Below, one piece after another: positions 51,624-55,744 of a DNA stretch of 64,000 bases. Position 1 is the first letter of the stretch, and each line of letters starts with the position of its first letter. The DNA comes from Pseudomonas sp. TH15 (GTDB lineage: Bacteria; Pseudomonadota; Gammaproteobacteria; Pseudomonadales; Pseudomonadaceae). Location: assembly GCF_016651105.1 (NCBI RefSeq), contig NZ_JAEKEL010000001.1:5012001-5076000 (forward strand), written 5' to 3'. The notes beneath the pieces were generated by a model. The model was given only the letters and a program-made list of their open reading frames with translations. It made no database searches and was not told the origin of the DNA. The position numbers and the translations under genes are program-made.

Positions 51624-52793
51624 ATGACGGACACAATCACCATGACCAGACTGACTATTTTCGGGGCTTGCGCAGCATTACTCAGCGCTGGCCCGTGCTT
51701 GGCGCAAGGTCAGACAGACCAGCAGATTCAAAGCGCGGTCGACGCCGCCATTCGCCCCATCATGCAAGCCCAAGGCGTTCCCGGCATGGCCGTGGCAGTG
51801 ACCATCGATGGCAAGCCGCATTACTTTAACTACGGCGTCGCCAACAAAGAAAACGCCCAAGCGGTCACCGAAAACACCCTGTTCGAAATCGGCTCGGTAA
51901 GCAAAACCTTCACCGCCACTCTCGGCGGCTACGCCCAGGCCACCGGCAAACTGTCCGTTACCGATAAGGCCAGCCAGGTCTTGCCGGCGTTGCGCGGCAG
52001 TGCGTTCGATAACGTCAGCGTGTTGCAACTGGGTACTTACACCGCCGGTGGATTGCCGTTGCAGTTCCCTGATGCGTTCGATCACGCAGATAAAATGCTC
52101 GGCTACTTCAAACAGTGGAAACCGGTGTATGCCGCCGGCACCCATCGTCAATATTCGAACCCCAGCATCGGGCTGTTCGGGTATCTGGCCGCGCAAAGCC
52201 TGGGCCAGCCTTTTGATGAGGTGATGGAGAAGACGCTGTTGCCGAAACTCGGGTTGAAGCACACCTACCTCAAAGTGCCGCAAGATCAGATGGAGATTTA
52301 CGCTCAGGGCTATGACAAGAACGACAAGCCTGTGCGCGTCAGCCCGGGGGCGCTGGACTCTGAAGCATACGGTGTGAAAACCAGTGCGGCGGACATGATT
52401 CGGTTTGTTGAGGCGAACCTGAAACCTTCGGGACTTGAAGCGCCAATGCAGAAAGCCATTGCAGCGACTCATACCGGTTACTACACGGTTGGTGACATGA
52501 CTCAGGGCTTGGGTTGGGAACGCTACACCTACCCGATCACCCTCGATAAATTGCTGGCCGGTAACTCGACGCCGATGGCCATGGAAGCGCATAAAGTCCA
52601 ATGGCTGAACCCGCCGCAGCCTGAGCCAGGCAGTGTATTGATCAACAAAACCGGCTCTACCGGTGGCTTCGGTACTTATGTTGCGTTCGTGCCCGCCAAA
52701 GACATTGGTATCGTGATCCTGGCCAACAAAAACTTCCCGAATGCGCAACGGGTGAAAATTGCCCACGAAATATTCAGCGCCCTCACTGAATGA
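51624..52793 (+). CDS. ampC: Class C beta-lactamase AmpC
   Basis: This 389-residue class C enzyme has a signal peptide ending near CLAQG. The active-site motifs are SVSK (EIGSVSKTFTA), Tyr-Ser-Asn (YSNPS, after HRQ) and Lys-Thr-Gly (INKTGSTGGFGTY), all intact. It hydrolyses cephalosporins in the periplasm. The start at 51624 (MTDTITMTRLTIFG) is preferred; 51642 is an alternative. The last eight codons (EIFSALTE) and the stop are copied into each unit of the tandem array that follows. Confidence 0.95.
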   Translation: MTDTITMTRLTIFGACAALLSAGPCLAQGQTDQQIQSAVDAAIRPIMQAQGVPGMAVAVTIDGKPHYFNYGVANKENAQAVTENTLFEIGSVSKTFTATLGGYAQATGKLSVTDKASQVLPALRGSAFDNVSVLQLGTYTAGGLPLQFPDAFDHADKMLGYFKQWKPVYAAGTHRQYSNPSIGLFGYLAAQSLGQPFDEVMEKTLLPKLGLKHTYLKVPQDQMEIYAQGYDKNDKPVRVSPGALDSEAYGVKTSAADMIRFVEANLKPSGLEAPMQKAIAATHTGYYTVGDMTQGLGWERYTYPITLDKLLAGNSTPMAMEAHKVQWLNPPQPEPGSVLINKTGSTGGFGTYVAFVPAKDIGIVILANKNFPNAQRVKIAHEIFSALTE

Positions 52794-54486
52794 CATAAAC
52801 CTGTGGCGAGGGGATTTATCCCCGCTGGGCGGCGAAGCGGCCCCAAAGCCATTCGATGCGGCGGGTCAGGCAAACCCGGTCGCTCGGATTCGGGGCCGCT
52901 TCGCAGCCCAACGGGGATAAATCCCCTCACCACAAGGTTCTCTACTCACAATAAAAAATGGGCGACCTGTTGAGGTCGCCCATTTCGTTTCAGCGTTTAA
53001 AGCTGCGCGTGCAACCGCCAGCCGATGACATCGAAATATTCAGCGCCCTCACTGAATGACCTAAAACCTGTGGCGAGGGGATTTATCCCCTCACCACAGG
53101 ATTCTCTACTCACAATAAAAAGTGGGCGATCTCTTGAGGTCGCCCATTTCGTTTCAGCGTTTAAAGCTGCGCGTGCAACCGCCAGCCGATGACATCGAAA
53201 TCTTCAGCGCCCTCACTGAATGACCTAAAACCTGTGGCGAGGGATTTATCCCCGCTGGGCGGCGAAGCGGCCCCAAAGCCATTCGATGCGGCGGGTCAGG
53301 CAAACCCGGTCGCTCGGATTCGGGGCCGCTTCGCAGCCCAACGGGGATAAATCCCCTCACCACAGGATTCTCTACTCACAATAAAAAATGGGCGATCTCT
53401 TGAGGTCGCCCATTTCGTTTCAGCGTTTAAAGCTGCGCGTGCAACCGCCAGCCGATGACATCGAAATATTCAACGCCCTCACTGAATGACCTAAACCTGT
53501 GGCGAGGGGATTTATCCCCGCTGGGCTGCGAAGCGGCCCCAAAGCCATTCGATGCGGTGGGTCAGGCAAAACCGGTCGCTCGGATTTGAGGCCGCTGCGC
53601 AGCCCAACGGGGATAAATCCCCTCGCCACAAGGTTCTCTACTCACAATAAAAAATGGGCGATCTCTTGAGGTCGCCCATTTCGTTTCAGCGTTTAAAGCT
53701 GCGCGTGCAACCGCCAGCCGATGACATCGAAACCTTCAGCGCCCTGACTGAATGACATAAAACCTGTGGCGAGGGGATTTATCCCCGCTGGGCGGCGAAG
53801 CGGCCCCAAAGCCATTCGATGCGGTGGGTCAGGCAAACCCGGTCGCTCGGATTTGGGGCCGCTGCGCAGCCCGACGGGGATAAATCCCCTCACCACAGGG
53901 TTCTCTACTCACAATAAAAAATGGGCGACCTCTTGAGGTCGCCCATTTCGTTACAGCGTTTAAAGCTGCGCGTGCAACCGCCAGCCGATGACATCGAAAT
54001 ATTCAACGCCCTCACTGAATGACATAAAACCTGTGGCCAGGGGATTTATCCCCGCTGGGCGGCGAAGCGGCCCCAAAGCCATTCGATGCGGTGGGTCAGG
54101 CAAACCCGGGCGCTCGGATTTGGGGCCGCTTCGCAGCCCAACGGGGATAAATCCCCTCACCACAAGGTTCTCTACTCACAATAAAAAATGGGCGACCTGT
54201 TGAGGTCGCCCATTTCGTTTCAGCGTTTAAAGCTGCGCGTGCAACCGCCAGCCGATGACATCGAAATATTCAGCGCCCTCACTGAATGACCTAAAACCTG
54301 TGGCGAGGGGATTTATCCCCGCTGGGCGGCGAAGCGGCCCCAAAGCCATTCGATACGGTGGGTCAGGCAAACCCGGGCGCTCGGATTTGGGGCCGCTGCG
54401 CCGCCCAACGGGGATAAATCCCCTCACCACAAGGTTCTCTACTCACAATAAAAAATGGGCGACCTGTTGAGGTCGCCCATTTTTTG
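52794..54486. repeat. Tandem array of ~266-bp units derived from the ampC 3' region
   Basis: Counting from the ampC stop, copies of the segment CGAAATATTCAGCGCCCTCA-CTGAATGA end at 53059, 53223, 53489, 53755, 54022 and 54289, giving periods of 266, 164, 266, 266, 267 and 267 bp. Each full unit contains a 37-bp inverted repeat (GAGGGGATTTATCCCCGCTG... and its inverse), a terminator hairpin (GGGCGACC..GGTCGCCC), a spacer (CAGCGTTTAAAGCTGCGCGT) and the copied end of ampC. The second unit lacks the centre of the inverted repeat. The final unit stops at the terminator next to the DUF4174 gene. Confidence 0.9.
54457..54486. terminator. Bidirectional terminator closing the array
   Basis: AAAAATGGGCGACC and GGTCGCCCATTTTTT form a ~12-bp stem flanked by A- and T-runs. 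It serves the DUF4174 gene on the minus strand and ends the array on the plus strand. Six other copies (with CATTTCG instead of the long T-run) lie in the array. Confidence 0.85.
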
Positions 54487-54501: not shown

Positions 54502-55065
54502 TCAATCGTCCGGCATTTCCGGCGGCTTGCTTGGTTTGGCGGGTTTGGTTGGCTTGGCACCTTTGGTACCTTTTGCCGGTTCTGGCGCAGCAGCGACCGG
54601 TGCCTGGGCAGCGGCGGCGGCTTCCTTCTCGGCCATTGGCATGGCGTCGATGGTGTCGAAGATTTTCTTCAGGTCGAGCGCTTTCGCCTCATCACCCGAT
54701 GCCGAGAGTTTGGTCTCGCCGTCCTTGCCCACCAGGAATACTTTCGGATAAGCCCCGGCGCCGAGTTTCAGCGAGCGCAGCAGCGCCATGGTGTCTTGCT
54801 GGCCCATGTCCTTGCCGTCGAGTTGGCCGGACATGTTGAGGATGGTGTAGACCTTGATATTGCGCTGGGCGATCCCCTGTTTGTTGGCCGGATCCTCCAA
54901 CGACTTTTTCAGGCTCACCCAGACCGGGTCGACGGTACTGGGTGCGATTACGATTAGCGGTCGGGCCCTGCCCACATCCGCAGCCAGGGGTGAGTCGCTG
55001 TCGGCGGCGAACAGGGGGCCGGCGAATGCCAGCAGAGTAGCCAGGGTCAATGACCTGATGAGCAT
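54502..55065 (-). CDS. DUF4174-type thioredoxin-fold periplasmic protein
   Basis: This is a 187-residue protein starting MLIRSLTLATLLAFAG, with AGGAG six bases before the ATG at 55065, and a signal peptide ending at FAA. The core (RPLIVIAPSTVDPVWVSLKKSLED ... YPKVFLVGKDGETKLSASGDEA) fits DUF4174, a thioredoxin-like fold without the CxxC motif. The C-terminal ~35 residues are a Lys/Pro/Ala tail (KPTKPAKPSKPPEMPDD). It is convergent with ampC across the array. The function is unknown. Confidence 0.75.
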   Translation of the reverse strand: MLIRSLTLATLLAFAGPLFAADSDSPLAADVGRARPLIVIAPSTVDPVWVSLKKSLEDPANKQGIAQRNIKVYTILNMSGQLDGKDMGQQDTMALLRSLKLGAGAYPKVFLVGKDGETKLSASGDEAKALDLKKIFDTIDAMPMAEKEAAAAAQAPVAAAPEPAKGTKGAKPTKPAKPSKPPEMPDD

Positions 55066-55273
55066 GCGCATCTCCTTTTGATATCCACGCTCTAATGATT
55101 GCGCATCGCGGCGATCGTTCCGGGTGACGATCCACGAATATGTTTCGCGTTGACCAAAGCTTAGGTCAGGGCCGGCATTGCGCAACATATCCAGCGCGAT
55201 AACAACGCGGATTTGATTACCTTTTATGACCGCATTAGGGTGGCAGTTCTGACGACGGAATGGAGTTCCCCCC

Positions 55274-55744
55274 ATGCAGATTGAATACCTGTGCGATCAC
55301 CCCGAATTGATTGAAGAACTGGCCGAACTCAACTTCAAGGAATGGGGTGAGTTTCGTCCGGGCGACACCCTTGAGGCGCGTACCGAACGCATGCGCGCGG
55401 CCTGTGGCAAGGGCGCGATTCCAAGCGTGGTGGTGGCGATTGAAAAAGGTACGTTGCTCGGTGGCGCCCTGCTGATCGACAGCGACATGAAAACCCGTCC
55501 CGAGCTGACGCCGTGGCTGGCCGGGGTGTATGTGAAGACTGAACAGCGCGGGCGCGGGGTCGCGTCGCAACTGGTCAAGCGCATAGTCGAAGAGGCTGCA
55601 GCGCTGGGTGTGCCGCAGTTGTATCTGTACACCGACGCGGCGCAGTCGTTGTATGCGCGGCTGGGCTGGGAGGTCATTGAGGATGTGGTGTACGAAGATT
55701 TGCCGGTAACGGTGATGAAGTACACCACACGGTCGCCGGCATAA
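55274..55744 (+). CDS. GNAT-family N-acetyltransferase
   Basis: This 156-residue protein has the GNAT acetyl-CoA motif (VKTEQRGRGVASQLVKRIVEEAAALG) and the C-terminal LYLYTDAAQSLYARLGWEVIED strand-helix. The N-terminal part (CDHPELIEELAELNFKEWGEF) resembles small-molecule acetyltransferases. The substrate is not predictable. GGAG precedes the ATG. It is divergent from the DUF4174 gene. Confidence 0.85.
   Translation: MQIEYLCDHPELIEELAELNFKEWGEFRPGDTLEARTERMRAACGKGAIPSVVVAIEKGTLLGGALLIDSDMKTRPELTPWLAGVYVKTEQRGRGVASQLVKRIVEEAAALGVPQLYLYTDAAQSLYARLGWEVIEDVVYEDLPVTVMKYTTRSPA

Follow-up and report, generated by a model that had tools for sequence, protein, structure and literature searches.

Architecture of the ampC downstream region

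We analysed a stretch of 64,000 nt from Pseudomonas sp. TH15 (contig NZ_JAEKEL010000001.1, positions 5,012,001–5,076,000), referred to below as the window and numbered from its first base. Its ampC gene, which encodes a class C beta-lactamase, is followed by a tandem array at 52766–54483, composed of copies of the ampC end, repetitive extragenic palindromic (REP) sequences and terminator hairpins, and beyond it lies a DUF4174 gene on the opposite strand (Table 1). A full unit comprises the nine terminal codons of ampC, an imperfect hairpin of two inverted GTGGCGAGGGGATTTATCCCC-type REPs, a terminator hairpin (GGGCGACC..GGTCGCCC) and about 45 bp, which in units 1–6 represent the 3' end of a gene other than ampC. 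The pairing of two inverted REPs into one hairpin, i.e. a REPIN (REP doublet forming a hairpin), is seen in all units except unit 2, where ~102 bp of the REPIN core are gone and a single short palindrome is left; the tandem units carry flanking non-REPIN DNA as well. Unit 7 differs on its right side (ATTTTTTGATTC, the terminator tail of the DUF4174 gene). An earlier sequence-only reading of this DNA had counted seven terminator modules and six extra ampC ends, which agrees with our map of seven ampC ends, the first copy being the gene's own end. The spacing of 266–267 bp that it gave applies to five of the six intervals (266, 164, 266, 266, 267 and 267 bp) but not to unit 2, and the inverted repeat that it described with 37-bp arms is present, but the repeat finder assigns to it arms of 54 nt with ~87–89% complementarity, 35 nt apart.

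Table 1. Features of the ampC locus in the window
Feature	Position	Strand	Remarks
ampC, class C beta-lactamase, 389 aa	51624..52793	+	NF033085 583.8 bits; PF00144
Parent switch inside ampC: last G216-only base 52735, first TH43-only base 52741	52736..52741		base-level parent map
Unit 1, 266 bp: final 9 ampC codons, REPIN 52803-52933, terminator hairpin, gene X 3' end	52766..53031	+	
First REPIN, two inverted GTGG(C/T)GAGGGGATTTATCCCC REPs, begins 9 nt past the ampC stop	52803..52933	no strand	
Unit 2, 164 bp, REPIN core deleted	53032..53195	+	
Unit 3, 266 bp	53196..53461	+	
Unit 4, 266 bp	53462..53727	+	
Unit 5, 267 bp	53728..53994	+	
Unit 6, 267 bp	53995..54261	+	
Unit 7, right side swapped for DUF4174-gene terminator tail, without gene X end	54262..54483	+	
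DUF4174 gene (coordinates of the listed ORF; probable start ~55047), TH43-like in its 3' part (to 54845) and G216-like in its 5' part (from 54859)	54502..55275	-	PF13778

The array obtained a score of 2546 from Tandem Repeats Finder (TRF), which reported no second tandem array within the 64-kb window. The REP core matches the window 15 times (0.00 expected from shuffled sequences), and 13 of these matches lie inside the array. The predicted RNA fold of 52760–53031 has an energy of -150.3 kcal/mol (z -11.7). GGGCGA..TCGCCC hairpins occur seven times; a consensus terminator scan called three of the seven on the minus strand and none on the plus (ampC) strand, where the T tract is interrupted (ATTTCGTTT in units 1–4 and 6, ATTTCGTTA in unit 5), while the terminator hairpin does fold in the RNA prediction. 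A phage origin of the array was rejected, as no phage match was found; as to peptide coding, the repeat offers only mechanical open reading frames of 53–71 aa.

Proposed origin of the unit from two convergent genes

The source of the unit is revealed by relatives. Two of them, G300 (L062) and Pseudomonas sp. N40(2020) (L093), supply the comparison with single-unit strains proposed earlier: downstream of ampC they have, in this order and in single copy each, a REP remnant, the same terminator and an opposite-strand gene, here called X. The ~45-bp extra segment of the unit is the 3' end (last ~12 codons) of this small convergent gene. Gene X is 88 aa long in G300, matches no family in Pfam or NCBIfam, and gives tblastn matches, two of them partial, in 10 of 74 loci. 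At the repeat junction, X is joined at GACATC to ampC at GAAATATTC, with ~1 bp in common.

We propose that in a TH43-type lineage (TH43 is the strain with the closest counterpart of the array, see below) a REPIN settled between ampC and gene X, and that an illegitimate tandem duplication then fused a point ~12 codons before the end of X with a point 9 codons before the end of ampC. This would have created the 267-bp unit, made up of the ampC end, the REPIN, the terminator and the end of X. By homologous recombination among units, the number may then have risen to 7–9 copies and the variants have been shuffled, and some units would have dropped REPIN and terminator pieces. Finally, the body of X could have been lost in a deletion that ran from the last terminator of the array to the similar one of the DUF4174 gene, which would explain why the last unit runs directly into DUF4174; in N40 a second terminator copy does stand ahead of the DUF4174 gene.

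The array in TH43 and the turnover of units

Among 71 ampC loci from genome contigs (of which L090 and L147 had just 60 and 401 bases downstream), only that of TH43 (L104) possesses extra ampC ends, eight in number. A genus-wide search at E 1e-20 gave matches to the query in 132 of 398 genomes, and among the matches listed the repeated ampC-end unit appeared only in the TH15 record (G000) and in G011, whose locus is identical to that of TH43 over the 8,824 bases that they have in common. The array is therefore not an invention of the assembly, since TH43 carries it independently; as regards the claim that it is no assembly artefact, this part stands, while for the junction with the ampC gene adjoining it here the claim is probably false, as discussed below.

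The two arrays have the same junction, with seven unit starts in the window and nine in TH43; two of the TH43 units lack half of the terminator, and others lack parts of the REPIN. Variation occurs in 38 columns: 18 are variable in both arrays, 6 in the window alone and 14 in TH43 alone, and no column shows a fixed difference between the arrays. In the four-gamete test 100 of 171 informative pairs fail. The units must therefore have been shuffled by recombination. The TH43-like unique DNA of the record differs from TH43 by 1.17%, while copy number and unit makeup of the array differ. The locus thus provides a worked case of a REPIN array born from a convergent gene pair, whose copy number changes faster than the surrounding DNA.

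Mosaic structure of the record

The TH15 record (6.25 Mb in two contigs, rated 99.99% complete with 0 contamination) is a mosaic of G216-like and TH43-like sequence. G216, listed as the same species, has an ampC gene identical over 1090 of 1090 bases and no array behind it, while the 3' part of the DUF4174 gene is identical to TH43 over 340 of 340 bases. Mapped base by base, the window matches G216 as far as 52735 and TH43 between 52741 and 54845; from 54859 it returns to G216, and further on to TH43. G216-like and TH43-like sequence alternate over 29600–64000 of the window and over the whole record. The body of ampC is therefore G216-like, and the array together with the last ~17 ampC codons is TH43-like, which gives no support to the suggestion that the array grew from the ampC gene shown in the window; that it is native to this ampC lineage we rejected on account of G216, with its matching ampC and no array. 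Growth from an ampC end is nevertheless supported for the TH43-type lineage, given the one junction, the same locus and the single-copy, pre-array state in relatives.

Three stretches of the record were compared with both parents. They contain 64 TH43-like tracts, 49.4 of 234.4 kb (21%), which are ~98% like TH43 within a backbone 99.3–99.7% like G216; all 15 exact REP copies in these stretches fall in TH43-like tracts. Parentage depends strongly on divergence: of the 200-bp bins in which similarity to the other parent reaches 80% or more, only 5 of 641 are TH43-like, versus 147 of 188 where it is below 50% or no alignment is possible (bins of unclear parentage were excluded from both counts). 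Two G216 blocks, one of 71 kb and one of 9.8 kb, are missing from the record where TH43 runs on, and in the stretches compared extra G216 DNA is missing in general, its site mostly holding a short TH43-like patch. The ~71-kb block corresponds to G216 C1:6611860-6683270, and its gap site lies at 29.5–29.65 kb of the window. Insertions and deletions of 1 bp (0.43 per kb against TH43, 0.37 per kb against G216) are uninformative as to tracts of unpolished long reads.

The REP family, its transposase and other REPIN arrays

With up to one mismatch, the REP of the array has 228 matches in the record (111 + 117) and 434 in TH43 (219 + 215), and no copy in G216. The record contains a gene for a REP-associated tyrosine transposase (RAYT, NF047646; G000 C2:697897-698211, L072), which in TH43 is flanked by the same REP as the array; in the record the gene is 96.5% like TH43 and sits within G216-like flanks. 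The REPIN arms around it have cores of mixed parentage (GGCTTGCCCCC, AGCTTGCTCCC and ATTTATCCCC). Individual units inside other arrays of the record likewise bear G216-style REPINs.

These other arrays carry the gene ends of their own neighbours. The unit starts inside the 3' end of the upstream open reading frame in six of the eight arrays examined (ampC, L064–L067 and L070), L068 and L069 being less clear. Copy number varies here too, as had been anticipated for the ampC array: the record has 7 units and TH43 has 4 between genes which we take to be folK and panB (L067 1989-3849, a 270-bp unit), and two gspD arrays have 4 + 7 versus 10 + 3 units, while L064 has 7 in both. The gspD pair (L065 2308-3327 and L066 1971-3797) is one 255-bp REPIN unit arrayed at two sites 560 kb apart, presumably between gspD and gspE in both cases, within two paralogous secretion clusters. 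The flanks of the folK-panB and L064 arrays are 99–100% like G216 and 85–91% like TH43, while the arrays themselves match TH43 and are missing from G216. Evenly spaced REP matches at G000 C1:445917-446906 and C1:1268033-1268819 suggest two more tandem arrays (~242 and ~232 bp). Arrays of another type than the REPIN clusters occur in TH43 at L061 15194-15506 and 15619-15744, where REP-like sequence forms short repeats in tandem, with periods of 37 bp (8.4 copies) and 19/38 bp.

Chimeric assembly or natural hybrid

From the sequence comparisons we conclude that the record is probably a chimeric assembly of two species, and we hold it quite likely as a whole that a tandem REPIN cluster arose from the convergent ampC/X pair and was, in this record, overwritten with G216-like sequence. 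A TH43-like template would have kept its array, while the conserved surroundings, including most of ampC, would have been overwritten, most likely by a reference-guided consensus or by polishing with another strain's reads. Consensus calling and polishing overwrite similar DNA and leave dissimilar DNA and repeats, so a pattern of tracts such as the one observed is to be expected. The array would then be real, the sequence joined to it in the record probably an assembly product, and its proper place probably behind another copy of ampC than the one adjoining it here. The alternative is a natural hybrid, in which a G216-like strain gained many short TH43-like pieces by homologous recombination, one of them bearing the ready-made array and replacing a native REPIN and a gene behind ampC (a short-chain dehydrogenase, judged by eye). 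The base-sharp switches with nearly pure parentage on either side, the close similarity of the backbone to G216 and the retention of part of the G216-only DNA agree with such an origin. Recombination, however, needs similarity, yet the TH43-like tracts hardly occur in similar DNA and prevail where no alignment is possible, whereas in a natural recombinant they should be at least as common in similar as in dissimilar DNA. Short TH43-like patches in place of most of the missing G216 DNA, and REPINs with arms of unlike parentage, also speak against it. We therefore regard it as improbable that this is a true hybrid, in which short TH43-like tracts took the place of about one fifth of a G216-like genome; if it were, a REPIN population, a transposase and ready-made arrays would have been brought into a lineage without that REP.

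Several observations do count against overwriting. Some DNA that the record has in common with G216, and for which the TH43 stretches gave no counterpart, has been kept (e.g. 53000-54800 of contig 1), which overwriting can accommodate only with a template that contained it; ampC was overwritten even though it is only ~75% alike between the parents; extra pieces of TH43, several of them REPIN-sized, are missing where the record follows G216; and those tract edges that were examined base by base are for the most part clean, which true recombination would yield as well. Some predictions are also loose, as the template was not TH43 itself. It would have been a relative of TH43, given the 1.17% difference, which may explain these discrepancies without proving anything. 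The pairing of ampC and array in the record should not be trusted, and TH43 is the better example. In our opinion this warning outweighs the biology: a record that passes as complete and uncontaminated appears to be a base-level mix of two species, so that its ampC-array join, its species label and recombination statistics derived from it can mislead.

Possible consequences for ampC

The sequence-only reading had suggested that the array might block read-through completely or alter the stability of the ampC mRNA; a complete block is at most a possibility, given that the terminator scan called nothing on the ampC strand. A study in E. coli reports that REPs located no more than 15 nt from the stop codon stall ribosomes and reduce translation (PMC12306157). 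As 9 nt separate the ampC stop from the first REP, a modest effect from a single unit is possible. The six further units lie downstream of a terminator and should therefore add little, so any effect would stem mainly from the first unit, and the later ones are most likely passengers. That the whole array has been selected as a multi-terminator or mRNA-stability device for ampC strikes us as very unlikely. The sevenfold terminator hairpin and the position of the first REP would suit such a device, but similar arrays stand behind unrelated genes, units in TH43 have lost terminator halves or REPIN parts, and TH43 alone has the array among the ampC loci surveyed. A literature search pairing ampC with REP found nothing related. 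We give hardly any credence to the 267-bp unit being a mobile element that inserted here repeatedly: REPs of this kind do occur at many sites, but among the matches listed it is only the REPIN part that recurs elsewhere in the genome, the ampC-end and gene-X-end segments being confined to the ampC locus, and the other arrays bear the ends of their own neighbours' genes.

Comparison with known systems

Like the single intrinsic terminator between ampC and its neighbour in relatives, the putative terminator of the array has a GC-rich hairpin followed by a T-rich tract; unlike it, it is present sevenfold within a larger unit, and its T tract is broken on the ampC strand. The BIME-2 arrays of E. 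coli are intergenic REP-based repeats, from which the ampC array differs by a different REP family and by a longer unit that includes coding ends. A closer parallel comes from Pseudomonas fluorescens SBW25, for which Bertels and Rainey (2011, PMC3116915) describe 16 tandem REPIN clusters with flanking sequence, the largest with four REPINs. Like those clusters, the ampC array consists of tandem REPINs that include flanking DNA; unlike them, it has its own REP core, flanks derived from the 3' ends of two convergent genes plus a terminator, and seven or nine units against a maximum of four REPINs. The ampC array is a tandem REPIN cluster in the sense published there, but of greater length.
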